Positions 385-62,245 of a stretch of 64,000 nt of DNA are shown one piece after another. Source of the DNA: a virus. The translations under genes and the position numbers were made by a program. Within the stretch, counting starts at the first letter, position 1. Each line of letters opens with the position of its first letter. The stretch spans positions 1 through 64,000 of IMG/VR virus record IMGVR_UViG_3300027797_000026. One strand, given 5' to 3'. The notes beneath the pieces are model-generated. The model ran no database searches. It saw only the letters and a program-made list of their open reading frames with translations, and had not been told where the DNA came from.

Positions 385-597
385 TTAGTTTCTCCTATAT
401 CCCGTTTGTTCTGAATCGCTTTCGTGAATTAACTTTAAGTTATGTTTTTCACGAAGACGTGTTACTTTCTCAATACTACCAGTTCCAATGTTGAATGTCA
501 ACGAACCCATTTCTTCAGGGTCCAGTCCAATAATTTCTGCATCCCAGATGGCCCTCGCAAAGGCCACCTGAGATGGAGCGGTAAGTTCAAAGTACAT
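385..597 (-). CDS. Hypothetical protein, 70 aa
   Basis: Unrecognised. A small soluble protein with hydrophobic stretches around residues 5-25, ending in a basic YRRN. The start ATG overlaps the TAG stop of the upstream 222-residue gene, and the next gene starts two bases after its stop. Co-directional tight packing supports a real gene. No motif is visible. Confidence 0.7.
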   Translation of the reverse strand: MYFELTAPSQVAFARAIWDAEIIGLDPEEMGSLTFNIGTGSIEKVTRLREKHNLKLIHESDSEQTGYRRN

Positions 598-1265
598 TAG
601 TTCTCCCTTACATTTGTAACTTCGGTATCATCTACTTGGATGTTACCGTGTTGTGATTCAACATAAAGATTGTCGTAGATTTCTGATTCAACATCTGTAT
701 CTGAATCAGCAAGCAAATCTAATTCAATAGTTCCGCTAACTTCAATAGTTGCAGACCATTCAACTGTTCTAGTTAATTCAATATCAAGTGCTTCAGCAAT
801 TGAACGAAGTGTTTCTTGGTCATCTGAATCAGCATATGCTTCAGTAATAATATCTTTAACTAAACTAATTTTGTTAGTCAAGGAGTTGTTTGTTTTTTGA
901 GTTTGACGTGCATTGTGCAAATCCCATTCAATAGATGCAACCTTGGTAGTTGCATATTCAGGGTCAGAGTATCCGTGGATAATCTTATATGTAACTAATT
1001 GATTTGGATTGTACTCCACTGCAGGTGAGTGTGTAGCATCTGAGCCGATTGTTGCTTCTTCCATTTGTTCCTCTTTCGTTGGTAGGGGTGTATCTGTATA
1101 TGGTATTGTAGCATCTTCAACTGACAATAATGTGCAACTGGTCCCACATCTGCATGTTAGGTCCATCACACCGTTTGGCCATCCATAGCCATCCTTAAAG
1201 GTATATTCAATTAAGGCATCACAATCGCTTGTACATATCCAGGTATACTTCTGATATTTTGTCAT
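597..1265 (-). CDS. Cys-rich N-terminal phage protein, 222 aa
   Basis: The N-terminal ~50 residues hold four to five Cys (CTSDCD, then CRCGTSC), a probable zinc ribbon. The rest is acidic, with predicted helix and strand and no recognised domain. Two starts are plausible. The ATG at 1265 lies exactly six bases after a TACAAT box, so it would be leaderless. An internal ATG at 1064 (155 aa product, MEEATIGSD) has the arm-typical CCAACGAAAGAGG leader and its own promoter at 1105-1126. Both forms may be made: full-length with the zinc ribbon and a short form without it. The function is unknown. Confidence 0.7.
   Translation of the reverse strand: MTKYQKYTWICTSDCDALIEYTFKDGYGWPNGVMDLTCRCGTSCTLLSVEDATIPYTDTPLPTKEEQMEEATIGSDATHSPAVEYNPNQLVTYKIIHGYSDPEYATTKVASIEWDLHNARQTQKTNNSLTNKISLVKDIITEAYADSDDQETLRSIAEALDIELTRTVEWSATIEVSGTIELDLLADSDTDVESEIYDNLYVESQHGNIQVDDTEVTNVREN
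1105..1126 (-). promoter_or_regulatory. Internal left-arm promoter P1b
   Basis: On the minus strand TGTCAG (1126-1121), exactly ten bases, then TACAAT (1110-1105), preceded by TGC as an extended -10. The predicted start near 1098 would give a leader with AACGAAAGAGG before the ATG at 1064. It lies inside the 222-codon ORF. Confidence 0.65.
1155..1170 (-). promoter_or_regulatory. CRP/GlxR-type box, P1b
   Basis: TGTGATGGACCTAACA on the minus strand, a 9/10 match to TGTGA-N6-TCACA. It is centred about -64.5 from the predicted start of P1b. It is coding as well, so chance conservation is possible. Confidence 0.45.
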
Positions 1266-1271
1266 GCGAGT

Positions 1272-1293
1272 ATTGTAGCAGTTGCCACTGACA
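1272..1293 (-). promoter_or_regulatory. Left-arm promoter P1 (leaderless)
   Basis: TGTCAG (1293-1288), ten bases, TACAAT (1277-1272) with TGC before it. Six bases separate the -10 from the ATG at 1265, so transcription should start on the A of the start codon. Confidence 0.75.
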
Positions 1294-1322
1294 TCTGTCT
1301 ATAGATTCCAGGGAAATTTTTA

Positions 1323-1338
1323 TGTGATACGTAACACA
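1323..1338. promoter_or_regulatory. CRP/GlxR-type box, P1
   Basis: TGTGATACGTAACACA, a 9/10 match to TGTGA-N6-TCACA, centred near -65.5 from the P1 start. It is followed by AAAATTTG, resembling the AAAATTC flank of the boxes at 2592, 4462 and 5842. Confidence 0.6.
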
Positions 1339-1347
1339 AAATTTGAA

Positions 1348-1363
1348 CCCGCACCTTTGCGGG
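1348..1363 (-). terminator. CCCGCA-TGCGGG intergenic hairpin
   Basis: A perfect six-base stem with a four-base loop, just downstream of tRNA-Asp and just upstream of the P1 box. There is no strong U-run, so it may be a weak terminator or a tRNA 3' processing signal. The same stem recurs at 2653 and 4523. Confidence 0.5.
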
Positions 1364-1370
1364 CATTTTG

Positions 1371-1444
1371 CGATCTGTAACGGACTTGAACCGTCGACCT
1401 CTACCGTGACAGGGTAGCGCTCTAACCAACTGAGCTAACAGACC
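1371..1444 (-). tRNA. tRNA-Asp (GUC)
   Basis: Full cloverleaf on the minus strand. The acceptor GGTCTGT pairs with ACAGATC (one G-U). The D stem is GCTC/GAGC. The anticodon stem CTACC/GGTAG holds loop CTGTCAC, giving anticodon GTC. The T arm is GACGG-TTCAAGT-CCGTT. The discriminator is G, as expected for Asp, and CCA is not encoded. It lies between the DUF932 gene's terminator and promoter P1. Confidence 0.93.
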
Positions 1445-1445
1445 A

Positions 1446-1480
1446 AGAAAAAAATTGTGAGCAGTTTTAAATCATGCTCA
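1446..1480 (-). terminator. Rho-independent terminator after the DUF932 gene
   Basis: On the minus strand TGAGCA, an 11-base loop, TGCTCA, then a run of seven T. It lies between the DUF932 gene stop and the 5' end of tRNA-Asp, so the tRNA would need read-through or its own promoter. Confidence 0.65.
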
Positions 1481-1493
1481 GGATTTTATTTAT

Positions 1494-2501
1494 TTAGAAA
1501 GCAGAAACCAATTTCTTGATTTTGTTTTTCTCAGCAGTTAGAATTGGGTCAAATCCTGATGCACCAGCCATAAGTGTTTCAGCATTGCCACGTGATGAGC
1601 GATAGTAATCAAGGCGCTCAGTTAGTGCATTGAATGCACCCCACTTTGTTCCTTTGATGTTCGCGTTAGTTGGTGAGTTGTGATACAAAGAATCAAGGAG
1701 CACAACTTTGTTCTCCCACTTTGTTAGCGCAACTTTTGCGGCATCCTTATCTGGCTTAGGATAAATTGTCTGAATCAACTTAGAGAATTCAGCATCAGTA
1801 ATTGCCTGAGAGTATAGAGCCTTAGCCTCAATCTCGAATTCATCAAAGTATCCAAGAGCAAGACCGAGAGTCTCACGAGCAACGGCAATGCGACCTTCAA
1901 CAGATTGCGTGTGACGAATCTTGAATGATTGCTTAGCATTACGCATTGCAAGATTCAAAGTGTTTTGGCATACAACACGAACAGGAGTAACGGCTGCCTG
2001 AACGGCAACTGAACCATCGTGTGATGTCCATACGATTAAATAGAGTTTAGTTTCATCGTTGGCACCTTGTGGGTCAAGAACCATTGTGCGAGGAATATCA
2101 ACAGTACCGAATACAACTTTGCCCTTCTTAAGAGAGCCAGCAGATTCCCAACGGCAATCTGCATTTGCATCATGAATTGCATCCGCAAAAGCGAATAGTT
2201 CTTCATTCTGCACAGGCTTGTAACGCTTGCCAACAGTGGCAAGAACATCGGTGCCCTTGTTGAATGGGTTGTCACGAATGACAAGGGATGCAGTAGATAC
2301 ATCATTCCAAGATTCTGGAATATGCTCAGTGATAGGAGACAAGCGAACATTCCAATTGGAAAGTTTTGCTTCGTCTAGCATCGTTTGTGTTGTGACTTCC
2401 TCATCTTGTGTAAAGATTCGGTTTGCAAGGTTGTGCCATGCAGGTGAGCCACGGAGAGCGAATGCAACTTCGCCGTTTTCCATTTCGAGATTATGAGCCA
2501 T
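1494..2501 (-). CDS. DUF932 / TIGR03299 phage-plasmid protein, 335 aa
   Basis: Family features: an N-terminal GSPAWHNLANRI segment, a central VGKRYKPVQNEELF, and TPVRVVCQNTLNLA in the middle (about residues 168-183). These match the DUF932 proteins carried by phages and plasmids, whose biochemical role is unknown. The length is normal for the family. The ATG at 2501 follows an AACGAAAGG leader and promoter P2 with a -35-like TAGACA. It is likely strongly expressed in the left-arm regulon. A terminator hairpin follows it. Confidence 0.85.
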   Translation of the reverse strand: MAHNLEMENGEVAFALRGSPAWHNLANRIFTQDEEVTTQTMLDEAKLSNWNVRLSPITEHIPESWNDVSTASLVIRDNPFNKGTDVLATVGKRYKPVQNEELFAFADAIHDANADCRWESAGSLKKGKVVFGTVDIPRTMVLDPQGANDETKLYLIVWTSHDGSVAVQAAVTPVRVVCQNTLNLAMRNAKQSFKIRHTQSVEGRIAVARETLGLALGYFDEFEIEAKALYSQAITDAEFSKLIQTIYPKPDKDAAKVALTKWENKVVLLDSLYHNSPTNANIKGTKWGAFNALTERLDYYRSSRGNAETLMAGASGFDPILTAEKNKIKKLVSAF

Positions 2502-2531
2502 TATTTTTTACCTTTCGTTTGATTAGTTGTA

Positions 2532-2560
2532 AGTATAACATCTGGCACTGACATTGTCTA
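2532..2560 (-). promoter_or_regulatory. Left-arm promoter P2
   Basis: TAGACA (2560-2555), 17 bases, TATACT (2537-2532). A TGTCAG box (2553-2548) lies ten bases upstream of the -10. It drives the DUF932 gene with a leader of about 24 bases. Confidence 0.8.
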
Positions 2561-2591
2561 GGATTAGATACAATATGTCCGAATTGATCCA

Positions 2592-2607
2592 TGTGAGTAA
2601 TCTCACA
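2592..2607. promoter_or_regulatory. CRP/GlxR-type box, P2
   Basis: TGTGAGTAATCTCACA, a perfect TGTGA-N6-TCACA, centred about -74.5 from the P2 start, followed by AAAATTCC. Confidence 0.75.
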
Positions 2608-2652
2608 AAATTCCTGGCGTTTTCCACAGGCTCTCTTAAACCTGTGGATAAC

Positions 2653-2668
2653 CCCGCACCTATGCGGG
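2653..2668. terminator. CCCGCA-TGCGGG hairpin upstream of the P2 box
   Basis: A perfect six-base stem with loop CCTA, in the same relative place as the hairpin at 1348. A second stem, GGGGC/GCCCC (about 2686-2709), lies between it and the stop of the 77-residue gene. Together they probably end the transcript coming from 2718. Confidence 0.5.
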
Positions 2669-2717
2669 CATCTCAAATAATAAGATGGGGCGGGATCAAG
2701 ATCCAGCCCCAAACCTA

Positions 2718-2951
2718 TTACTTATTTACTATTAAAGACTTTACGTAATTAACTGTCTCCATAGGAAAGAATGCTGCAGATGTCTTTTTCTTATTCTTTT
2801 GGTCATAAACAAAAGCTTTAACGTTTCCGTCAAACTTTATTAGATTAGAGAATACTAATTCCTTTAGACTATCATTATCATAGCCTTCATCTGAGTACAT
2901 CGTTAAATCATTTGCTTTTACTTCATCGTACATTTCAATCTTGAAACGCAT
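2718..2951 (-). CDS. Hypothetical protein, 77 aa
   Basis: Unrecognised, mixed charge, no Cys, no membrane segment. The start ATG follows AACAAAGGTAACACA, a usable Shine-Dalgarno. No TGTCAG-type promoter is seen upstream, so it is probably read from P3 through the 140-residue gene. A CCCTGAAGGGAGAG element upstream (from about 2976) resembles one upstream of P3. Confidence 0.65.
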   Translation of the reverse strand: MRFKIEMYDEVKANDLTMYSDEGYDNDSLKELVFSNLIKFDGNVKAFVYDQKNKKKTSAAFFPMETVNYVKSLIVNK

Positions 2952-3010
2952 TGTGTTACCTTTGTTAGTAGTTGTCCCTGAAGGGAGAGCAGTTTGGCGA
3001 CTTACTCAGG

Positions 3011-3040
3011 TCGTTCGCAATTTATCGTTATGCGAGAACG
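3011..3040. terminator. Hairpin downstream of the 140-aa gene
   Basis: Imperfect stem CGTTC-CGCA / TGCG-AACG between the 140-aa and 77-aa genes. There is no U-run on either strand, so it may be an attenuator or processing site rather than a full terminator. Confidence 0.35.
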
Positions 3041-3047
3041 ATTTTAT

Positions 3048-3470
3048 TTAGAGATACTGTGCAACCGCATTGTAGGTTGAAGTATTTACTGTTTCCTCAT
3101 CTGTCATTTTCAGAATACGGATTGCGTTAGAGATTTCTGACTTCTGCTCATTGTATGAGTGTTGGTGTAGTGTCACAAAGTCCTTGACAGGCTCTTTAGG
3201 CATGTCTTTCTCTGTAACTGTTAGGTCAAAGTCAATGTTAAGACTATTGTTCCATGAGCGATAGTTGGTACGGAAGTTTTCTGCCTTCTTGATGTTTGCT
3301 ACCGCAAAGTCAATAACTTCCTTTTTCCACTTTTCCATAGCCTTGTTATACTTTGCTTCGTTGGCTTCTTGTGAAGTCCAATCAAGTTCTAACTTAGCAA
3401 GTGATTGCTCTAGTGCCTTGATGATTTTAGGTGTTGCGATTTTTACTGAGATTGCTTTTCCTCTAGCCAT
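3048..3470 (-). CDS. Hypothetical protein, 140 aa
   Basis: Unrecognised. A basic N-terminus, long predicted helices (residues 15-70) with many Lys, Glu and Ala, then a mixed C-terminal half. The ATG follows the leader CCAACGAAAGAGGAAACAA and promoter P3. The size and helical character would fit a small DNA- or protein-binding factor, but nothing specific is visible. Confidence 0.7.
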   Translation of the reverse strand: MARGKAISVKIATPKIIKALEQSLAKLELDWTSQEANEAKYNKAMEKWKKEVIDFAVANIKKAENFRTNYRSWNNSLNIDFDLTVTEKDMPKEPVKDFVTLHQHSYNEQKSEISNAIRILKMTDEETVNTSTYNAVAQYL

Positions 3471-3503
3471 TTGTTTCCTCTTTCGTTGGTTGGTTGGTTG
3501 ATT

Positions 3504-3525
3504 AGTATAGCAGTTGCTACTGACA
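3504..3525 (-). promoter_or_regulatory. Left-arm promoter P3
   Basis: TGTCAG (3525-3520), ten bases, TATACT (3509-3504) with TGC before it. No TGTGA-N6-TCACA box is found at -60 to -90, unlike most of its relatives. The 163 bases to the next gene upstream also hold a CCCCGAAGGG hairpin and a GAAAC/GTTTC stem. Confidence 0.7.
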
Positions 3526-3633
3526 TTTTCCCCGAAGGGAGAGAGTTCTTACTTACGACATTGGACTAGAACACTCTCTGAAACTGTCCCTGTTTCGTGG
3601 CTTAGCACCCGATTAGTGGTGTGTGCCTCCGTC

Positions 3634-3816
3634 TTATGCGCCTGTTAGGGCTGAGTCGCTAACTGTTGTCCAACGAGTTTCCTTTGTTGGCATTTCTAGT
3701 AGCACTCGCACCGAGCCAGATGCGTTAGGAATAATCTCTTTGATTACTCCTGTCTTTTTTGACTTTAGGGTGGTGAATAAATCGCCAACCTTGTATGTGT
3801 ATCCATTTACTGTCAT
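3634..3816 (-). CDS. Small SH3-like barrel candidate, 60 aa
   Basis: The YKVGDLFTTLKSKKTGVI pattern, followed by alternating strands, looks like a KOW/SH3-type small beta barrel. This is inference from the pattern of turns and strands only. The start at 3816 follows AGAAAGGAAGC and promoter P4. A short stem (GAAAC/GTTTC) follows the stop. Confidence 0.65.
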   Translation of the reverse strand: MTVNGYTYKVGDLFTTLKSKKTGVIKEIIPNASGSVRVLLEMPTKETRWTTVSDSALTGA

Positions 3817-3842
3817 TTTGCTTCCTTTCTGTTTAGGGTCTT

Positions 3843-3872
3843 ATTGTAGCATTGGGGTGTGACATTCGTCTA
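3843..3872 (-). promoter_or_regulatory. Left-arm promoter P4
   Basis: TAGACG (3872-3867), 18 bases, TACAAT (3848-3843). The box at ten bases is TGTCAC (3864-3859), one base off the consensus. Confidence 0.7.
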
Positions 3873-3902
3873 GCCCTATCTCACCATGTGAGAATGTTAT
3901 TG

Positions 3903-3918
3903 TGTGACCTTAGTCACT
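3903..3918. promoter_or_regulatory. CRP/GlxR-type box, P4
   Basis: TGTGACCTTAGTCACT, a 9/10 match to TGTGA-N6-TCACA, centred about -74.5 from P4. It overlaps the last codons of the 89-aa gene. Confidence 0.6.
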
Positions 3919-4179
3919 TTCAGGTAGCCAAAACTCTAGGTGGTGTTGTTCGATAATAGCGGAGGCGGGTGCAAATTTTTCTCCACGATACGACACGCCT
4001 TCAGGCATTGCGATTAGTTTATTATAATCCTCATCATAGTATGCATCAATAGCATCAATGCAAGGTTGTACCATAGATAGCGGAACGGGTGGATAGTGAT
4101 TACCCTGTAAGTGATAACCTAATTGTGTTTCCAAATCTAACACGCTATCTTGAATACCTAGTGCAGTTACGCTTCCCAT
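3910..4179 (-). CDS. Hypothetical protein, 89 aa
   Basis: Unrecognised. Acidic, with LSMVQPCIDAIDAYYDEDYNK and a C-terminal EQHHLEFWLPESD. One-base TAATG overlap with the upstream 67-aa gene shows translational coupling. The stop region overlaps the CRP-type box of P4. Confidence 0.7.
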   Translation of the reverse strand: MGSVTALGIQDSVLDLETQLGYHLQGNHYPPVPLSMVQPCIDAIDAYYDEDYNKLIAMPEGVSYRGEKFAPASAIIEQHHLEFWLPESD

Positions 4180-4382
4180 TAGTTAGCAACCTTTAGAATA
4201 GCGTATGAGCCATTTTCGTTAATCTCATCAAGAATTGGTTGCAAGCGAGAGCCTACCAATTCCTTTAGCATGCCTTCAAGCATTGTAATACGCATTGACT
4301 CATCAAGTGCCATTACCTGTGCAGTTATAGGGTGACCTTCCTTAAACTCTGTTACGAATTTTAGGTTATGTTCTACTATCAT
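4179..4382 (-). CDS. Hypothetical protein, 67 aa
   Basis: Unrecognised, with a predicted helical second half (MRITMLEGMLKELVGSRLQ). First gene after promoter P5, with the AACGAAAGG leader. It is coupled to the 89-aa gene. Confidence 0.7.
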   Translation of the reverse strand: MIVEHNLKFVTEFKEGHPITAQVMALDESMRITMLEGMLKELVGSRLQPILDEINENGSYAILKVAN

Positions 4383-4412
4383 TTTATTGCCTTTCGTTTG
4401 TTGGATAAGAGT

Positions 4413-4434
4413 ATTTTAGCATAACCCACTGACA
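4413..4434 (-). promoter_or_regulatory. Left-arm promoter P5
   Basis: TGTCAG (4434-4429), ten bases, TAAAAT (4418-4413), extended by TGC. Confidence 0.7.
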
Positions 4435-4440
4435 TTACCT

Positions 4441-4570
4441 AATCTATTACCGCATAAGTCTTGTGATAAACCTCACAAAATTCCAGGGTGATTTTGATCA
4501 CACCCGTAACGACACGCCCGACCCCGCAGCTATGTGCGGGATTTTGGCAACTTGTCAAGTCGAAACGCTT
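4441..4570. repeat. Dispersed regulatory module, copy A
   Basis: This stretch shares order and wording with 5821-5950: TGTGA box, TCACAAAATTC, a variable stretch, ACGACACGCCCGACCCCGCA, a GCGGG hairpin (stem 4523-4528 with 4535-4540), then TTGTCAAG and a CGAAACG or CGACACG tail. A shorter relative is at 2590-2670. It appears to be a duplicated terminator-operator-promoter cassette. Confidence 0.65.
4462..4477. promoter_or_regulatory. CRP/GlxR-type box, P5
   Basis: TGTGATAAACCTCACA, a perfect TGTGA-N6-TCACA with AAAATTCC after it, centred about -63.5 from P5. Confidence 0.75.
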
Positions 4571-4669
4571 TTATAGATTAGAAAAAATATAATAAACAAG
4601 AGCAAAAGGCAAAATAGCCAGGGCAATAGTAATCACTCCACCAATTAAACCAATTAGATCATAGATCAT
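4571..4669 (-). CDS. One-TM micropeptide, 32 aa
   Basis: MIYDLIGLIGG followed by a long hydrophobic stretch (ITIALAILPFALVYYIF), almost wholly one membrane helix. An AAAGGG Shine-Dalgarno sits before the ATG, which overlaps the stop of the preceding basic ORF. The role is unknown; superinfection exclusion or a lysis helper are guesses. Confidence 0.55.
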   Translation of the reverse strand: MIYDLIGLIGGVITIALAILPFALVYYIFSNL

Positions 4670-4808
4670 TTTTCCCTTTGTGTTTTATTTTACGTGTGTA
4701 TTTTTTTTTATTGCGAACAGGTTGCGCCGCATTGCTACGGCGCAATTCCTGAATGCGTTTAACTTTATCTCGAAGAGAGGTTTGGAACACTGTAGCCACA
4801 CGCCTCAT
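4659..4808 (-). CDS. Basic 49-aa peptide (overlapping ORF)
   Basis: An ORF opening MRRVATVFQTSLRD and continuing into a strongly basic tail rich in Lys and Arg. It overlaps the last 44 bases of the 63-aa gene in another frame and ends inside the start of the TM peptide. It fills a gap that would otherwise be empty, with end-to-start coupling. A GC stem (4722-4745) inside it could instead be a terminator. Real or chance is undecided. Confidence 0.45.
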   Translation of the reverse strand: MRRVATVFQTSLRDKVKRIQELRRSNAAQPVRNKKKYTRKIKHKGKNDL

Positions 4809-4956
4809 GAAATTTATTCACGTTAAAGTTTGGATTTTCTTTTGCGAACATTAACGCAAAATCATTAACCATTTTAGAAAAAACAGCGGGATGAGTTTTA
4901 TCGCTGGCAAACTTTAGAATTTCTGCAGTTGCCTCGAAGTGCTTTCGTGTCATCAT
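4765..4956 (-). CDS. Hypothetical protein, 63 aa
   Basis: Unrecognised. The pattern FEATAEILK...MVNDFALMFAKENPNFNVNKFHEACGY resembles small phage proteins of unknown function found in many actinophages and cyanophages. ATGATG overlaps the TGA of the previous gene. Confidence 0.7.
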   Translation of the reverse strand: MMTRKHFEATAEILKFASDKTHPAVFSKMVNDFALMFAKENPNFNVNKFHEACGYSVPNLSSR

Positions 4957-5156
4957 TTTACGGATACCATTCCTGTTCTATAAAATACCTTTGTGTAGCA
5001 TTTTCCGCTAGGTGTGTAAAGATTTACAGTTGAGTATTCATCAGCAAATCCCCAGTCAATGAATTTAGCAAACTCGGTGTGTGCTTCTAATTCATCTGAG
5101 TATTCTTTTATAAAGTGTAGCGGTTCGCTATCATTAGCAACAGTTATTTTATACAT
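4953..5156 (-). CDS. Hypothetical protein, 67 aa
   Basis: Unrecognised small alpha/beta protein. Overlaps both neighbours by a few bases and is part of the run 5737 to 4571 transcribed from P6/P7. No motif is seen. Confidence 0.7.
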   Translation of the reverse strand: MYKITVANDSEPLHFIKEYSDELEAHTEFAKFIDWGFADEYSTVNLYTPSGKCYTKVFYRTGMVSVK

Positions 5157-5292
5157 TATCGCCTTCCCATTCTAGCGTTACACATTCGCATTTTGTGATT
5201 TCAATTGTGTTTCCAAATTGTGAAACAGTTGCGAGAGTATCGCAATTATCACAAATAAAAACTCCTTCAAGTACATCAAATAGATTTCCCAT
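5149..5292 (-). CDS. Zinc-ribbon-like micropeptide, 47 aa
   Basis: MGNLFDVLEGVFICDNCDTLATV with a later CEC: two Cys pairs (CDNC, CEC) suggest a metal-binding knuckle. An ORF too short for most gene callers, but it fits exactly between neighbours, overlapping the start at 5156 by eight bases. The function is unknown. Confidence 0.65.
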   Translation of the reverse strand: MGNLFDVLEGVFICDNCDTLATVSQFGNTIEITKCECVTLEWEGDNV

Positions 5293-5418
5293 TTATTCAA
5301 ACGCTCCTTCGTTTAGTAATCCAATTTCAATGTTAAACAATTCATCTGGTGTTGCTTCGGCTAAATCAACCCAAGAAACGCCTTCCTCATTTATTCTTGC
5401 GAATTCAATGTATCCCAT
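5293..5418 (-). CDS. Hypothetical acidic micropeptide, 41 aa
   Basis: MGYIEFARINEEGVSWVDL, strongly acidic and closely packed between neighbours. Unrecognised; the operon context is the main support. Confidence 0.6.
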   Translation of the reverse strand: MGYIEFARINEEGVSWVDLAEATPDELFNIEIGLLNEGAFE

Positions 5419-5420
5419 TA

Positions 5421-5621
5421 TTATTCACCAACCTTTACCGCTAAAGTGCGGTGAGCATAACCGCCGTTAGAATTGCGAACCTCTACGAGATAACTTTCGC
5501 AATCTTGATACCAAACCGCTTTAGGGTGTATCTCCGCTGAGATAATTTCTCCAGTAAGAGATTTAGAGCGATACATTTTTCCGATTAGTAAATCGGGAAT
5601 TGAATAGACATTTGCTGACAT
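5421..5621 (-). CDS. Hypothetical SH3-like protein, 66 aa
   Basis: IPDLLIGKMYRSKSLTGEIISAEIHPKAVW and the remainder alternate short strands and turns, compatible with a small beta barrel. Start after AACGAAAGAAGG. Promoter P6 lies inside the preceding 38-aa gene, giving it its own transcript. Confidence 0.65.
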   Translation of the reverse strand: MSANVYSIPDLLIGKMYRSKSLTGEIISAEIHPKAVWYQDCESYLVEVRNSNGGYAHRTLAVKVGE

Positions 5622-5737
5622 TATTTGCCTTCTTTCGTTGTTGGAATTGTAATTGTAGCAGATAGGGCTGACAAGGCTTCTGCCTTGCTTGCTTGGCGGG
5701 TGGCGTTTACATACGCCTTGAATTCATCTAGGTTCAT
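5621..5737 (-). CDS. Micropeptide, 38 aa
   Basis: MNLDEFKAYVNATRQASKAE, Ala-rich and helical. The ATG at 5737 is chosen because the AACGAAAGAAGG leader and P7 lie just upstream; a longer reading to 5821 would run through the promoter. Its last codons double as the leader (AACGAAAGAAGG) of the 66-aa gene. Confidence 0.6.
   Translation of the reverse strand: MNLDEFKAYVNATRQASKAEALSALSATITIPTTKEGK
5652..5673 (-). promoter_or_regulatory. Left-arm promoter P6
   Basis: TGTCAG (5673-5668), ten bases, TACAAT (5657-5652), extended by TGC, inside the end of the 38-aa gene. No CRP-type box is found upstream. Confidence 0.65.
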
Positions 5738-5771
5738 GAATTGACCTTCTTTCGTTGTTGTTATAGTAGAC

Positions 5772-5793
5772 ATTATACACGAAAACACTGACA
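5772..5793 (-). promoter_or_regulatory. Left-arm promoter P7
   Basis: TGTCAG (5793-5788), ten bases, TATAAT (5777-5772). It drives the 38-aa gene and the run below it. Confidence 0.75.
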
Positions 5794-5820
5794 AAAAATA
5801 ATTACTAGCCAGTAAGTCCA

Positions 5821-5950
5821 TGATGTGAGACGCTCAACGTATGTGATTAATCTCACAAAATTCGGGGGATTTTATAACGTCTTCATAACGACACGCCCGA
5901 CCCCGCACCAGTGTGGGGGTGGCGCCCTGAATTGTCAAGGCGACACGCCG
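5821..5950. repeat. Dispersed regulatory module, copy B
   Basis: Second copy of the cassette at 4441-4570, with a CCCCGCAC/GTGTGGGG hairpin at 5901-5918 and TTGTCAAGGCGACACGCCG near its end. The same last phrase recurs at about 6856-6873 upstream of P8. Confidence 0.65.
5842..5857. promoter_or_regulatory. CRP/GlxR-type box, P7
   Basis: TGTGATTAATCTCACA, perfect, followed by AAAATTCG, centred about -84.5 from P7. A half-site TGTGA lies at 5824. Confidence 0.7.
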
Positions 5951-5951
5951 T

Positions 5952-6149
5952 TTATTCTATGTGACCTTCCTCACGCATGTAGTCCTCATGCTCTACTAGC
6001 CCAATCGCAAACGCTACGGGATCGCAACATTCTAGAATTTCGGCGGGGGTGAATGTAGAGTAGCCGATTTTTACTGTAGGATAAACATCATTAAGTAAAT
6101 CTATAAAGCTTTCTTTTATTTCTAAGTCTTGCTCGAATTGTGATTTCAT
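5952..6149 (-). CDS. Hypothetical protein, 65 aa
   Basis: Acidic and unrecognised (ILECCDPVAFAIGLVEHEDYM). Similar short phage proteins containing a DPVAF phrase are common unknowns. It overlaps the upstream one-TM peptide (ATGA). The repeat module lies just after its stop. Confidence 0.7.
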   Translation of the reverse strand: MKSQFEQDLEIKESFIDLLNDVYPTVKIGYSTFTPAEILECCDPVAFAIGLVEHEDYMREEGHIE

Positions 6150-6259
6150 TTAGTTAATTCTCTCATCTCTTCTAGAAAGTCATGCCATACAATGCGCCCC
6201 ATGTAGAGGGCGGGTACTATAAGGGCTAATTGCACTAGGGTAGTTAGTAGTCTATTCAT
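6146..6259 (-). CDS. One-TM micropeptide, 37 aa
   Basis: MNRLLTTLVQLALIVPALYMG then a charged tail (WHDFLEEMRELTK): an N-terminal membrane helix or signal anchor. Coupled at both ends (TAATG, ATGA). Unknown role, next to another membrane protein. Confidence 0.6.
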   Translation of the reverse strand: MNRLLTTLVQLALIVPALYMGRIVWHDFLEEMRELTK

Positions 6260-6453
6260 TAGTTAGCCCATAAATCATTAGTAGCGTTATCTAGTGAGTA
6301 ATTCTCTACTACTTTTTTATTGCGTATGCGCTTATAAATCTTATAAGCGATTATAGATAAGGCGGTCAAGATAATGAACGCCCATGATAGGGATAGATAA
6401 ATAAAGTCTCCCATGTCGAACATGAAGCCGTAGTCATTTAGTTCAATAGTCAT
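6259..6453 (-). CDS. Single-pass membrane protein, 64 aa
   Basis: An acidic N-terminus, a membrane helix about residues 18-38 (IYLSLSWAFIILTALSIIAY), then a basic stretch (KIYKRIRNKK), giving an N-out, C-in orientation. The role is unknown. Confidence 0.7.
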   Translation of the reverse strand: MTIELNDYGFMFDMGDFIYLSLSWAFIILTALSIIAYKIYKRIRNKKVVENYSLDNATNDLWAN

Positions 6454-6645
6454 TTATTTATCTCCGAACATGTTAAAGACCTCGTCTAGTTGCTCATCTG
6501 TTAAGTGGTCTAGTTGGATAGCCTTAGAAAAGCCTAGTACATCATCTTCATCATTATCTAGTGCCTTATTGTATTCTTCTTCTTCATCTAGGTGAATGTA
6601 TGCGTCTGATACGTCTGCCTGTATAGTGTCCCATTTAGTCATCAT
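6454..6645 (-). CDS. Acidic hypothetical protein, 63 aa
   Basis: Very acidic (DEEEEYNKALDNDEDD). Small acidic phage proteins are sometimes DNA mimics or inhibitors of host enzymes, but this is only a possibility. Coupled to the upstream gene by TAATG. Confidence 0.65.
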   Translation of the reverse strand: MMTKWDTIQADVSDAYIHLDEEEEYNKALDNDEDDVLGFSKAIQLDHLTDEQLDEVFNMFGDK

Positions 6646-6794
6646 TAGTTCTGTTCTACCTTTCGTAGGTGTGCTACAACATTTTTAGAAATTGACTGTA
6701 AATCTTTTACTGTCTTATTCATTTCGTCTGCGCTAGTTGCGGTAAAGAAACCGAGAAACTGTGCGCTGTCCCATAGTGAGTATGTGATTGTCAT
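6645..6794 (-). CDS. Hypothetical protein, 49 aa
   Basis: An ORF opening MTITYSLWDSAQFLGFFTAT, probably alpha/beta. First gene after P8, with leader AACGAAAGAAG. Resembles short unknown actinophage proteins by its opening pattern. Confidence 0.65.
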   Translation of the reverse strand: MTITYSLWDSAQFLGFFTATSADEMNKTVKDLQSISKNVVAHLRKVEQN

Positions 6795-6832
6795 TTTATT
6801 TTTTCTTCTTTCGTTAGTTGGTTATAGTTGGA

Positions 6833-6861
6833 ATTATAGCGGATAGGTCGGACATTATCAA
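6833..6861 (-). promoter_or_regulatory. Left-arm promoter P8
   Basis: TTGATA (6861-6856), 17 bases, TATAAT (6838-6833): the closest of the set to the housekeeping consensus. The box at ten bases is TGTCCG (6854-6849). Confidence 0.8.
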
Positions 6862-6884
6862 GGCGACACGCCGTAGCGTATGCC

Positions 6885-7022
6885 CTATGCGGTGTGAGTT
6901 GGCTCACATCTCGCATGGTATAGGGCGGGGGCTAAAACTACCTGCCCGCATGGACAGAGGTTCATTAGACCTCTAGGGTAGTTATTTACAGTAGCGAAAG
7001 GCTCGAAAATTCGATTAGTCAT
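6885..7022 (-). CDS. Cys-containing micropeptide, 45 aa
   Basis: MTNRIFEPFATVNNYPRG then CPCGQ and a later CEP: a half zinc-ribbon pattern. Its last codons overlap the CRP-type box of P8. The start overlaps the upstream stop (TAATG). Confidence 0.6.
   Translation of the reverse strand: MTNRIFEPFATVNNYPRGLMNLCPCGQVVLAPALYHARCEPTHTA
6893..6908. promoter_or_regulatory. CRP/GlxR-type box, P8
   Basis: TGTGAGTTGGCTCACA, perfect, centred about -74.5 from P8, inside the 3' end of the 45-aa gene. Confidence 0.7.
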
Positions 7023-7192
7023 TACTTAACCTCCTTACAGATACACTCGATACAGTAGCAAGCCTTGCTACTAAGTAGGTCACGCAATAGAGCCTTGCGT
7101 GTGTAGGCGTTTAATCCATAAGAGGACTTTACTCCACCATTGTGGAAATCATGCACGATTGTGCTATAGATTGTTTCTGTTAATTGAGTCAT
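7022..7192 (-). CDS. Hypothetical protein, 56 aa
   Basis: Start at 7192 (MTQLTETIYSTIVHDFHNGG) chosen for its AAAGGAG Shine-Dalgarno; a reading to 7249 would include the -10 of P9. The C-terminus has CYCIECICKEV, four Cys in eight residues, possibly metal-binding. First gene of the left arm. Confidence 0.7.
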   Translation of the reverse strand: MTQLTETIYSTIVHDFHNGGVKSSYGLNAYTRKALLRDLLSSKACYCIECICKEVK

Positions 7193-7239
7193 TATCTGAC
7201 TCCTTTCTAGTAAGAGTTTCTTACTTTCTTTATACTTTA

Positions 7240-7261
7240 AGCATAACACGGGGCACTGACA
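7240..7261 (-). promoter_or_regulatory. Left-arm promoter P9
   Basis: TGTCAG (7261-7256), ten bases, TATGCT (7245-7240). First leftward promoter of the divergent 7193-7461 intergenic region. Confidence 0.65.
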
Positions 7262-7298
7262 AATAGAGGCATTACTGGCTAGTATTAAAATAAATCTT

Positions 7299-7314
7299 TG
7301 TGATAGTCGTCACA
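7299..7314. promoter_or_regulatory. CRP/GlxR-type box, P9
   Basis: TGTGATAGTCGTCACA, perfect, centred about -73.5 from P9 and about -155 from the rightward gene, so probably serving the leftward side only. Confidence 0.7.
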
Positions 7315-7461: not shown

Positions 7462-8079
7462 ATGACAACAAAAACAGTTATAATAAATTCTCCACCTGGA
7501 AGCGGGAATACCTATTTAACTTATTTATTAAAAAAAGTTATTGAATGTGATGAAGTAACCGTAAACCATGATCTAGAGATATTAAATAGTGATCTAAAAC
7601 AAGTTGCTTTAATTAGAAATCCTTATGAATCAATTGCGTCTGCAGCAAGTAGGCATTTTTTTGCAAACGAATATCCAATACCAGAAGAAGACAAGTGGAA
7701 CATTGAAGATACTAAAATCATTCAAGTATCAATAAACGACTATATGCATAGAAGTAGGTTGTTTTTTGAATCTATTCAAAAAAAATCTGATCATATTAAA
7801 CTTATTGCATTTGATGATTTTAAAAATAATGAATTAAAATATGCAGAAGAGATTGCAAAATTTTATAATTTTGAATTTAAAGATCCTGATTACGATATTA
7901 ATGAGTTTATTTACAAAGAGGCAACTGATTTTGGAGTTGGCTCTAGACTCTCAAATACAAAAAGTAAAGAAAGAGAAATTTTAGATGAAATGGTAAGGTC
8001 TTATAATAAAATTGAAGAAGTATATGAGACCTATTTGGCTATAAAAGATAGTATTCAGTCAACTAGAAATATGCTATAA
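7462..8079 (+). CDS. Sulfotransferase-like P-loop protein, 205 aa
   Basis: SPPGSGNTYL (residues 10-19) fits the 5'-phosphosulfate loop of PAPS sulfotransferases, and LIRNPYESIAS (50-60) fits the 3'-phosphate motif (Arg52, Ser60). The protein would transfer sulfate from PAPS to an acceptor I cannot name; phage or host surface glycans are possibilities. It is shorter than full sulfotransferases (usually 250-300 aa), so the C-terminal part is reduced. Very AT-rich, standing alone between a leaderless promoter and tRNA-Ile, like a moron gene. A generic nucleotide kinase is the alternative. Confidence 0.7.
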   Translation: MTTKTVIINSPPGSGNTYLTYLLKKVIECDEVTVNHDLEILNSDLKQVALIRNPYESIASAASRHFFANEYPIPEEDKWNIEDTKIIQVSINDYMHRSRLFFESIQKKSDHIKLIAFDDFKNNELKYAEEIAKFYNFEFKDPDYDINEFIYKEATDFGVGSRLSNTKSKEREILDEMVRSYNKIEEVYETYLAIKDSIQSTRNML

Positions 8080-12110: not shown

Positions 12111-14045
12111 ATGAAAAATACTATCGAAAATCCTTATGAAAACTTTATTGCACTATCAAGATATGCTAAATGGGTAGAAGCAGAAGGACGTAGAGAGACA
12201 TGGGGAGAAACAGTAGATAGATACTTTTCTTTTATGACTAACCACTTAGAAAAAAATCACAATTACATTCCAAATGAAAAGCTAGTTGCGGAATTAAAAG
12301 AGTTTGTTTTTGAACGAAATGTAATGCCTTCCATGAGATCTGTAATGACTTCTGGGGCAGCCCTTGAAAGAGATAATGTAGCAGGATATAACTGTGCTTT
12401 CTTGCCAGTTGATTCCCCACGTTCTTTTGATGAAACTATGTATGTTTTGATGTGTGGAACTGGAGTTGGATTCTCAGTAGAATACAAGTATATTAATAAA
12501 CTTCCTGCCGTTCCAGAAAAACTTGAAAAAACGGATACAGTTATTGTAGTTGAAGATTCAAAACAAGGATGGGCTAAAGCATATCGTGAACTCCTTGCTT
12601 CACTTTGGGCAGGATATATTCCAGCAATTGATGTAACAAAAGTTAGACCTTCTGGTGCAAGATTAAAAACAATGGGTGGTCGCTCATCTGGTCCACAGCC
12701 ACTTATTAACCTTTTTGATTTTACTATTTCAAAATTTAAAGCTGCAACAGGAAGAAACCTTAAGCCGATTGAATGTCACGACATAATGTGCAAAATTGGC
12801 GAAGTAGTTGTAGTTGGTGGAGTTAGACGCTCTGCAATGATTTCACTTTCAAATATAAATGACATTGAAATGGCACAAGCTAAATCAGGTAACTGGTGGG
12901 AAGCAAGCCCACAACGTGCACTATCTAATAACTCAGTTGCGTATTCACGCAAGCCAGGAATGGAACAGTTTATTGCAGAATGGAAATCACTTTATGACTC
13001 AAAATCTGGAGAACGTGGTATATATAACGTTGCAGCAGCACAAGCACAAGCAGCTAAGTTTGGTAGAAGAGATCCAGAGATACACTATGGAACTAATCCA
13101 TGCTCTGAAATTATTTTGCGCCCATATCAGTTCTGCAATCTTTCAGAAGTAGTAGTTCGTGAAAATGATACTAAAAAAGACATTCAAAGAAAAGTTGAGT
13201 TAGCAACCATACTTGGAACATGGCAATCTACACTTACTGATTTTAAATATCTTAGAAAGATATGGAAAGATAACACAGAAGAAGAAAGATTACTAGGAGT
13301 TTCCTTGACTGGACAATTTGGACACAAGTTTATGTCTGGAAAAGAAGATTTGGTTATGCTTGAAGCATTCCTAATGACTCTTCGTGAAAAAGCAAGAGAA
13401 GTAAATAAAGAAGAGTCTGGGAAAATTGGGATTCCTGAGTCTGCAGCTATTACATGTGTAAAGCCTTCTGGAACAGTATCTCAATTGGTCGGGGTATCTT
13501 CAGGAATGCATCCATGGCATTCTCCATATTATATTCGTACAGTTCGTGGTTCAAAGGGGGATCCAATTTCTACATTTTTAAAAGAAGTTGGAATTCCAGT
13601 AGAAGATGACGTAATGAAGCCAAATGAGACTTATGTATTTTCATTTCCAGTTAAAGCTCCAGAGGGAGCAATTGTAAGAAATGACCTTACTGCAATTGAT
13701 CATTTAAATATTTGGCTAGTTTATCAACGTGCATGGTGTGAACACAAACCATCAATTACTGTTTCTGTAAAAGAAGAAGAATGGATGGAAGTAGGGGCTT
13801 GGGTATATAAAAACTTTGATGAAGTTTCTGGTATTTCATTCTTGCCTCATTCAGATCATACATATAAACAAGCTCCATACCAAGAAGTCTCAAAAGAAGA
13901 GTATGAGGCATTAGTTTCAAAGATGCCCAACAATATTCGTTGGGAAGACCTATCGTTTTATGAGACAGAAGATGGAACCTCACCCTCTGCCACCCTCGCA
14001 TGTAGCTCAGACGGCAATTGCGAACTTGTAGATATATCTGCCTAG
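12111..14045 (+). CDS. nrdJ: Class II (B12-dependent) ribonucleotide reductase, 644 aa
   Basis: Reduces ribonucleotides to deoxyribonucleotides for phage DNA synthesis using adenosylcobalamin. NPCSEIIL places the radical Cys at 331 with Asn329 and Glu333. C95 (GYNCAF) and C342 (FCNLS) are the reducible pair. KPSGTVSQL is the phosphate loop. The C-terminal ACSSDGNC holds the shuttle Cys pair that takes electrons from thioredoxin. Length fits the monomeric RTPR type. An eight-codon ORF at 12088 (MAEEKGDK) ends ATGA on this start, which could couple translation. The host must make or import B12. Confidence 0.92.
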   Translation: MKNTIENPYENFIALSRYAKWVEAEGRRETWGETVDRYFSFMTNHLEKNHNYIPNEKLVAELKEFVFERNVMPSMRSVMTSGAALERDNVAGYNCAFLPVDSPRSFDETMYVLMCGTGVGFSVEYKYINKLPAVPEKLEKTDTVIVVEDSKQGWAKAYRELLASLWAGYIPAIDVTKVRPSGARLKTMGGRSSGPQPLINLFDFTISKFKAATGRNLKPIECHDIMCKIGEVVVVGGVRRSAMISLSNINDIEMAQAKSGNWWEASPQRALSNNSVAYSRKPGMEQFIAEWKSLYDSKSGERGIYNVAAAQAQAAKFGRRDPEIHYGTNPCSEIILRPYQFCNLSEVVVRENDTKKDIQRKVELATILGTWQSTLTDFKYLRKIWKDNTEEERLLGVSLTGQFGHKFMSGKEDLVMLEAFLMTLREKAREVNKEESGKIGIPESAAITCVKPSGTVSQLVGVSSGMHPWHSPYYIRTVRGSKGDPISTFLKEVGIPVEDDVMKPNETYVFSFPVKAPEGAIVRNDLTAIDHLNIWLVYQRAWCEHKPSITVSVKEEEWMEVGAWVYKNFDEVSGISFLPHSDHTYKQAPYQEVSKEEYEALVSKMPNNIRWEDLSFYETEDGTSPSATLACSSDGNCELVDISA

Positions 14046-61444: not shown

Positions 61445-62245
61445 ATGACAAACGATTTAAAGTGGATGCTATCTTCGGACCAGCAATTCCCTTATCAAGA
61501 TGACAAGATGATCGAGCTTTGGTTTAAAGTAATGAAGTGGTTTAAGCCAGATGTCGTTGACTACCTTGGTGATACAGATGATCAGGCATGCTATAGTAAG
61601 TATACAGAAGGCCGTTCAGCAGAATTTATGCAGCTTCACAAAAATGATAGCAGAGATTTAATAGTCCCAATGATGCGACATGAAGCAAAGGGCGCTAGAG
61701 ATTTTTACGCAAAGACAAGAGAGATGCTTCCTAATGCACAATTATTTTCTGCTTTGGGTAACCACGACATTCGTATCTTTAACTATGTTGATGCCAAGCT
61801 TCCAGATTATATTAATGAGGTAACACCAGAAGCCTTGTGGTCCTTAGACTCACTTGGTTATGAATATATTTATTATGACGAGCTTCCTAAGCGCCGCTTT
61901 GGAGATATTCACGTGCACCATGGACTTTCTATTGCAGCAACAGGCTCAGCAAGAAAAGATATGGAAGACATGCAGATTTCACTAATTCGTGGACACTCTC
62001 ACAGAATTGCTTCGCATATGGTAACATATGAACTAAGAAATGGTGGAGAAGGCGAAACTCTTCGTGGATATGAGATTGGTCACATGTGTGATGAAAAGGG
62101 TCCAGGAATGAAGTATACTCAACACCATGATTGGCAAAAGGGATTTGCCGTTGCACATATTGTTAATGACTATCCTCATATTCAAATGATCCATGTTTCA
62201 CCAGATTACTCATGTGTCGTGGATGGAAAGTTTTTTCAAGTATGA
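61445..62245 (+). CDS. Calcineurin-like metallophosphoesterase, 266 aa
   Basis: SSDQQFPYQD at 10-19, GD at 42-43 (DYLGDTDD), GNHD at 105-108, HHG at 158-160 and GHSHR at 183-187 are the metal ligands of calcineurin-like phosphoesterases. Phages use them on DNA ends, cyclic nucleotides or pyrophosphates. First of the replication-side genes. Confidence 0.85.
   Translation: MTNDLKWMLSSDQQFPYQDDKMIELWFKVMKWFKPDVVDYLGDTDDQACYSKYTEGRSAEFMQLHKNDSRDLIVPMMRHEAKGARDFYAKTREMLPNAQLFSALGNHDIRIFNYVDAKLPDYINEVTPEALWSLDSLGYEYIYYDELPKRRFGDIHVHHGLSIAATGSARKDMEDMQISLIRGHSHRIASHMVTYELRNGGEGETLRGYEIGHMCDEKGPGMKYTQHHDWQKGFAVAHIVNDYPHIQMIHVSPDYSCVVDGKFFQV

Follow-up and report, generated by a model that had tools for sequence, protein, structure and literature searches.

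The window examined here comprises the first 64,000 nucleotides of a viral record of 67,380 bases (IMGVR_UViG_3300027797_000026). Its left arm carries a gene for a DUF932 protein, ten leftward cores of the form TGTCAG-N10-TANNNT that resemble real promoters, and a series of palindromes of the form TGTGA-N6-TCACA (Table 1). Eight such boxes had been reported in a first-pass annotation, which read them as CRP/GlxR-type sites at class I spacing, and our rescan returned all eight at the same positions and with the same mismatches. Three further sites with one mismatch had been overlooked, at 4487, 5960 and 62069; there is no promoter close to the site at 5960, and that at 62069, in the far arm, is probably due to chance. 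Five perfect boxes were observed in the window against 0.03 expected from dinucleotide shuffles, and all five lie in the leftward left arm. When up to one mismatch was allowed, 11 boxes were observed against 2.7 expected from such shuffles, and 10 of the 11 fall within 1155-7314.

Eight of the ten promoter cores are boxed, with the box centre 56.5 to 77.5 bp upstream of the last base of the -10 element and distances falling at 56.5-58.5, 66.5-67.5 and 77.5 bp; the other two carry no box. Distances near -64, -74 and -84 from the predicted starts, which assume that transcription begins 7 nt downstream of the last -10 base, proved correct when recomputed from the -10 ends, although only seven distances had been listed for the eight boxes. 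For the eight window boxes alone, helical phasing has a p value of about 2e-4 to 1e-3. A weak -35 element was considered as a mark of activator dependence, but the comparison came out opposite: boxed promoters score better than unboxed ones in the -35 and the same in the -10, many of the boxed -35 elements still being imperfect. At one core (1272..1293) only 6 nt separate the -10 element from the ATG, which suggests a leaderless message. Four genomes were searched for TGTCAG cores, and nearly all of these occur in one block of 8-10 kb.

Table 1. Features of the left arm of the window. Distances run from the box centre to the -10 end, and predicted positions refer to the start assumed in the text.
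Feature	Position	Strand	Remarks
ORF	597..1265	-	downstream of promoter 1272; contains promoter 1105 and box 1155
Promoter core TGTCAGTTGAAGATGCTACAAT	1105..1126	-	
CRP/GlxR-type box, 1 mismatch	1155..1170	.	57.5 bp from -10 end of core 1105; predicted -64.5
Promoter core TGTCAGTGGCAACTGCTACAAT	1272..1293	-	TAGACA -35 upstream
CRP/GlxR-type box, 1 mismatch	1323..1338	.	58.5 bp from -10 end of core 1272; predicted -65.5
DUF932 / phrog_1221 protein gene	1494..2501	-	anchor of the arm in relatives
Promoter core TGTCAGTGCCAGATGTTATACT	2532..2553	-	TAGACA -35, 17-nt spacer
Perfect CRP/GlxR-type box, DUF932 gene promoter	2592..2607	.	67.5 bp; predicted -74.5; place conserved in relatives
DnaA box variant TTTTCCACA	near 2623		inverted orientation
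Perfect DnaA box TTATCCACA	2643..2651	-	upstream of box 2592
Promoter core	3504..3525	-	no CRP box
Promoter core TGTCACACCCCAATGCTACAAT	3843..3864	-	
CRP/GlxR-type box, 1 mismatch	3903..3918	.	67.5 bp; predicted -74.5
Promoter core TGTCAGTGGGTTATGCTAAAAT	4413..4434	-	
Perfect CRP/GlxR-type box	4462..4477	.	56.5 bp; predicted -63.5
Second CRP/GlxR-type box, 1 mismatch	4487..4502	.	25 bp behind 4462
CGACACGCC element	4510..4518	+	further copies 3991, 5889, 5941, 6864
Promoter core	5652..5673	-	no CRP box
Promoter core TGTCAGTGTTTTCGTGTATAAT	5772..5793	-	
Perfect CRP/GlxR-type box	5842..5857	.	77.5 bp; predicted -84.5
Promoter core TGTCCGACCTATCCGCTATAAT	6833..6854	-	TTGATA -35, 17-nt spacer
Perfect CRP/GlxR-type box	6893..6908	.	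67.5 bp; predicted -74.5
Promoter core TGTCAGTGCCCCGTGTTATGCT	7240..7261	-	
Perfect CRP/GlxR-type box	7299..7314	.	66.5 bp; predicted -73.5

To follow the arm in related viruses we retained 80 IMG/VR loci whose DUF932 proteins are 93-99% identical to that of the window, some of them on contigs of 110-117 kb. Farther loci show 45-76% identity to a second query, and the protein of Streptomyces phage Angela (Stanwilliamsviridae) shows ∼51% identity. The 80 near relatives (1.12 Mb) contain 488 perfect boxes, at least one at each locus, while control palindromes and altered spacers gave 0-6; another 184 perfect boxes were found in 45 farther boxed relatives. There are 5-8 perfect boxes per genome, and those listed are confined to a single 8-10 kb block in genomes of roughly 115 kb. 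This rules out the boxes as a general genome motif; in the long records they are restricted to one arm.

The spacing of the boxes is likewise held across the relatives. In the 80 near relatives, the distances from perfect boxes to the core peak at 57.5, 67.5, 77.5-78.5 and 88.5 bp and a side peak falls at 62.5 bp, and the CRP box matched 180 promoters against 0-3 for control palindromes. A scan of the viral collection with a free gap (a box, any gap of 18-47, then a core, thus a 30-bp range) returned at least 120 stretches, and among the matches listed the distances were mostly 57.5 and 67.5 bp. The strongest single result is the periodicity of 10.4 bp, obtained as the best period for 172 promoters with dissimilar spacers (box-to-core distances between 45 and 105, similar box-to-core spacers having been removed) with R = 0.66 and a Rayleigh p of about 1e-33, a value that is approximate because redundancy was cut by shared 10-mers and not by a tree. 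The search imposes no helical period on the box distances, and the helical repeat of DNA is 10.4 bp. The boxes lie upstream of the -35 element without overlapping it and almost always on one face of the helix. Phased boxes, as first noted in the window, are therefore confirmed, and the helical-turn spacing stands across hundreds of relatives, but its reading as CRP class I architecture is only partly supported: the boxes of one class, at 62.5/63.5 bp, are shifted by half a helical turn, and the register lies some 3 bp away from the E. coli class I position of -61.5 (PMC5957442) if transcription starts 7 nt after the -10 element, an offset that a closer start would remove.

Class I activation by CRP in fact covers just part of the promoter architecture, because DnaA boxes, an CGACACGCC element and the TGTCAG element are also present, all three overlooked in the first-pass annotation. 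The first two motifs surfaced through k-mer counting in the promoters. In the 80 loci we counted 418 copies of the predicted DnaA box TTATCCACA but 8 of its reversal, and a DnaA-type box lies within 80 bp upstream of 244 of 672 CRP boxes, with DnaA-to-CRP distances clustering at about 24-25, 44-47 and 65 bp. DnaA boxes in pairs are helically spaced, mostly 11-12, 21 or 23 bp apart. The window has such a pair only at the 2592 promoter; at the 4462 promoter a second CRP box stands at the distance corresponding to the DnaA site, and CRP box pairs 23 and 25 bp apart recur in the relatives. In the DUF932 promoter the whole footprint of box, DnaA box, -35, TGTCAG and -10 is conserved among relatives, the first DnaA box being nearly invariant and the second kept in either orientation, which speaks for protein binding and against an RNA hairpin. 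A literature search on DnaA boxes in phage early promoters yielded nothing usable. The CGACACGCC element was found 424 times in the 80 loci and 0 times when reversed, often at fixed distances to the -10 end of 35 and 43 bp, and no factor could be matched to the motif. Most listed members of the out-of-phase 62.5 class have this element interposed between the box and the -35, so it may change the geometry there.

WhiB is an actinobacterial signature, and we found it in 10 of the 11 phage records searched, the sole exception being the window's own shorter record; the host is therefore very probably an actinobacterium, and likely a freshwater low-GC lineage such as the Nanopelagicales. One match pointed to a cyanobacterial host, through a phage contig binned with a MAG that bears a cyanobacterial label, but we judged this contig misbinned because the only WhiB of that MAG sits on it. 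The best explanation of the virus is a freshwater actinophage with a genome of roughly 115 kb. A search of the literature for CRP in Nanopelagicales yielded nothing usable. As to timing, the terminal repeats of SPO1 and T5 carry the first-expressed host-takeover genes, and these modules resemble the left arm in their dense small genes, strong early promoters and long terminal repeat; we know of no CRP or DnaA sites in them. A distant box-lacking relative (L147/L148) has its DUF932 arm inside an exact terminal direct repeat of 8,517 bp. By analogy with SPO1 and T5, and from a repeat seen only in that distant relative, we infer that the left arm of the window holds early, probably pre-early, host-takeover genes.

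We propose that the left arm comprises leftward early genes, most with their own sigma-A-type promoter, and that the boxes would be operators for a host cAMP receptor protein of the CRP/GlxR family. A dimer placed at one of the several whole-turn spacings upstream of the -35 element, and sharing the helical face that RNA polymerase occupies, would most likely recruit the enzyme by way of its alpha C-terminal domain, in the manner of CRP at class I promoters; early transcription would then depend on, or be boosted by, host cAMP-CRP. In some cassettes host DnaA, on a helically spaced box pair just upstream, may supply a second input on host state. The upstream, non-overlapping position, the single helical face, the several whole-turn spacings and the identity of the site argue for class I activation, and we consider it fairly likely that host CRP/GlxR is a class I-type activator of the early arm genes. 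More tentatively, these may be composite early promoters, in which two global regulators of the host, CRP/GlxR (cAMP and carbon state) and DnaA (replication state), form a phased array that stands with a third factor, at CGACACGCC, behind sigma-A polymerase, allowing the phage to compute host physiology before takeover.

The same protein could act with the opposite sign, host CRP/GlxR (with DnaA) repressing or delaying the arm, for example through a phased loop or a nucleoprotein complex, so that polymerase would be kept at the core pending a change in conditions. Looping repression would likewise need helical phasing, GlxR and CRP are both able to repress, and boxed promoters with a good -35 and an extended -10 may need no activator. 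We nevertheless regard repression as unlikely: the boxes are very seldom near the core, whole-turn steps upstream of the -35 are the classical pattern of activation, a lytic phage would gain little by repressing its takeover genes, and in C. glutamicum GlxR acts mostly by activation (PMC4254451).

For the identity of the protein the central bases are informative. The box logo, TGTGA-T-N-T-A-N-A-TCACA, prefers TA at the centre and T..A at the ends of the centre, and fits the GlxR consensus TGTGANNTANNTCACA (PMC4254451). Rex operators have the same TGTGA-N6-TCACA half-sites, but their centre begins with A and finishes with T (TGTGAA....TTCACA) (PMC5355995). Among 189 boxes with distinct flanks, T..A was found in 43 and the Rex-like A..T in 1, which rules out Rex as the binding protein and upholds the CRP/GlxR-type assignment of the boxes. 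Searches of the 11 phage records, some perhaps incomplete, for HTH_Crp_2, cNMP_binding and Sigma70_r2 domains gave no match while the positive controls did, and we accordingly set aside a phage-encoded CRP or sigma factor as unlikely candidates. It is thus quite improbable that another regulator with the same half-site binds here, whether from the host or the phage, such as the NADH sensor Rex or an HTH protein among the small phage ORFs, most of which are without annotation; both the central TA with its flanking T..A, which is the CRP/GlxR optimum, and the missing CRP-type HTH and cNMP domains speak against it. The first-pass suggestion that the early or middle genes sense host cAMP or a CRP-like regulator gains from the probable actinobacterial host and from the phage records having yielded no CRP-family protein, but its class I reading is incomplete.

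Very unlikely, in our view, is a decoy role, in which the CRP and DnaA boxes would titrate the two host proteins off the chromosome so as to stop replication or catabolic regulation in the host; each genome does offer several perfect sites, and for two host proteins, but titration would not call for a fixed helical position upstream of a promoter, whereas these sites keep to phased distances and persist in the orthologous promoter, and the number of perfect CRP boxes per genome is small against a global regulator. That the boxes and their spacing recur by descent and not by selection, from a promoter cassette that was copied along the arm and dispersed by recombination, is extremely improbable, for although some cassettes share flanks (window 2591, 4461, 5841) and cassette order and make-up differ among relatives, phasing persists at three or more discrete spacings in the 172 dissimilar-spacer promoters, box and DnaA sites stay while adjacent bases change, and the second DnaA box flips in place between relatives.

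Exploitation of host regulators by phages is already known, as with the cyanophage NtcA and PhoB sites. T4-like cyanophages carry 1-16 NtcA boxes per genome, at which a metabolic sensor of the host, likewise from the CRP family, has its sites on phage DNA, but these boxes serve diverse genes and have the operator GTA-N8-TAC (PMC3037559); the actinophage boxes differ in lying in one arm, in strict helical phasing and in being composite with DnaA boxes. The Pho boxes of cyanophage S-PM2d, to which binding of host PhoB was shown by EMSA (PMC10976474), similarly place a host regulator on phage promoters and link infection to host nutrition, but involve a two-component regulator, with neither a CRP protein nor a whole promoter array. 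With E. coli class I CRP promoters (lac type) and actinobacterial GlxR/Mt-CRP promoters the arm shares the 16-bp consensus, the central TA preference, and an upstream non-overlapping site at one-turn steps behind a sigma-70/A-type core; it differs from them in having many promoters in a row, the ∼3 bp phase offset, good -35 elements and the added DnaA, CGACACGCC and TGTCAG elements. Our literature search, of partial coverage, turned up no description of an early arm set with phased CRP/GlxR boxes, nor of such boxes paired with DnaA boxes. To our knowledge there is no earlier case of phased DnaA boxes beside CRP boxes in phage promoters.

If the proposed activation holds, a phage family wires most promoters of its probably first-expressed arm to a second-messenger regulator of the host, in a setting that is probably that of abundant freshwater actinobacteria. 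Near-perfect CRP boxes ahead of probable first-expressed genes suggest that the virus reads the physiological state of its host during takeover. The predictions are concrete and testable by single sites, and they offer a way to tie infection outcome to host carbon and replication state. The helical-phase signature could also reveal the hijack of host regulators in other viral metagenomes.

The distribution of the boxes follows the DUF932 tree, where they are present in 88 of the 88 rows of one clade (support 100/100). No boxes with 0-1 mismatch were found in the scanned Streptomyces, Arthrobacter and Rhodococcus phage relatives (L088, L089, L090). Box-lacking relatives still have some TGTCAG cores and DnaA boxes, so the CRP layer may have been added later. 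Outside the boxed clade only two loci have boxes, L152 with one and L137 with seven, some of them in phase; the latter is a possible second acquisition.

Upstream of the CRP boxes (TGTGA-N6-TCACA) of the left arm, perfect DnaA boxes were found in the window and in its close relatives (L005-L084), frequently as helically spaced pairs, and in the loci of these relatives they were ∼50-fold commoner than the reversed sequence used as a control. A further element, CGACACGCC, often lies at a fixed distance from the promoter in the window and relatives, in which its reversed sequence, used as a control, was not found.

Features of the left arm and genes to its right
Feature	Window position	Remarks
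DnaA-box sites	2643-2651, 2623	upstream of CRP boxes; also in L005-L084
CGACACGCC element	3991, 4510, 5889, 5941, 6864	also in relatives
TTACTGGCTAGTAA palindrome	5806, 7270	conserved; also in relatives
Sulfotransferase-like gene	7462-8079	right of left arm
Ribonucleotide reductase gene	12111-14045	right of left arm, beyond sulfotransferase-like gene

In the left-arm cores of the window and of four phage records (G003, G004, G008 and G009), TGTCAG stands immediately behind the -35 and 10 bp ahead of the -10; the majority of arm promoters carry it and the rest of the genome is almost without it. The hexamer is possibly a spacer element or the site of an additional factor. Where the CRP box centre is 77.5 bp from the last -10 base, GAGCGTCTCA accompanies the TTACTGGCTAGTAA palindrome. 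At 1265-1277 of the window only 6 nt separate the -10 from the ATG, so that the message is likely leaderless.

Among more distant relatives, L147/L148 (124.5 kb) carries the DUF932 arm inside an exact terminal direct repeat of 8,517 bp. L137, placed outside the main boxed clade of the DUF932 tree, also has a boxed arm, with part of its boxes in phase, which may reflect transfer or a second acquisition. TGAGCCTWAGCAAATAA-like repeats lie on either side of the CRP box in L171, L183, L192, L194 and L208; in part of these relatives both strands carry promoters of the arm. One full-size actinophage contig (L085/G011) was binned in a MAG labelled as a cyanobacterium, probably as contamination.
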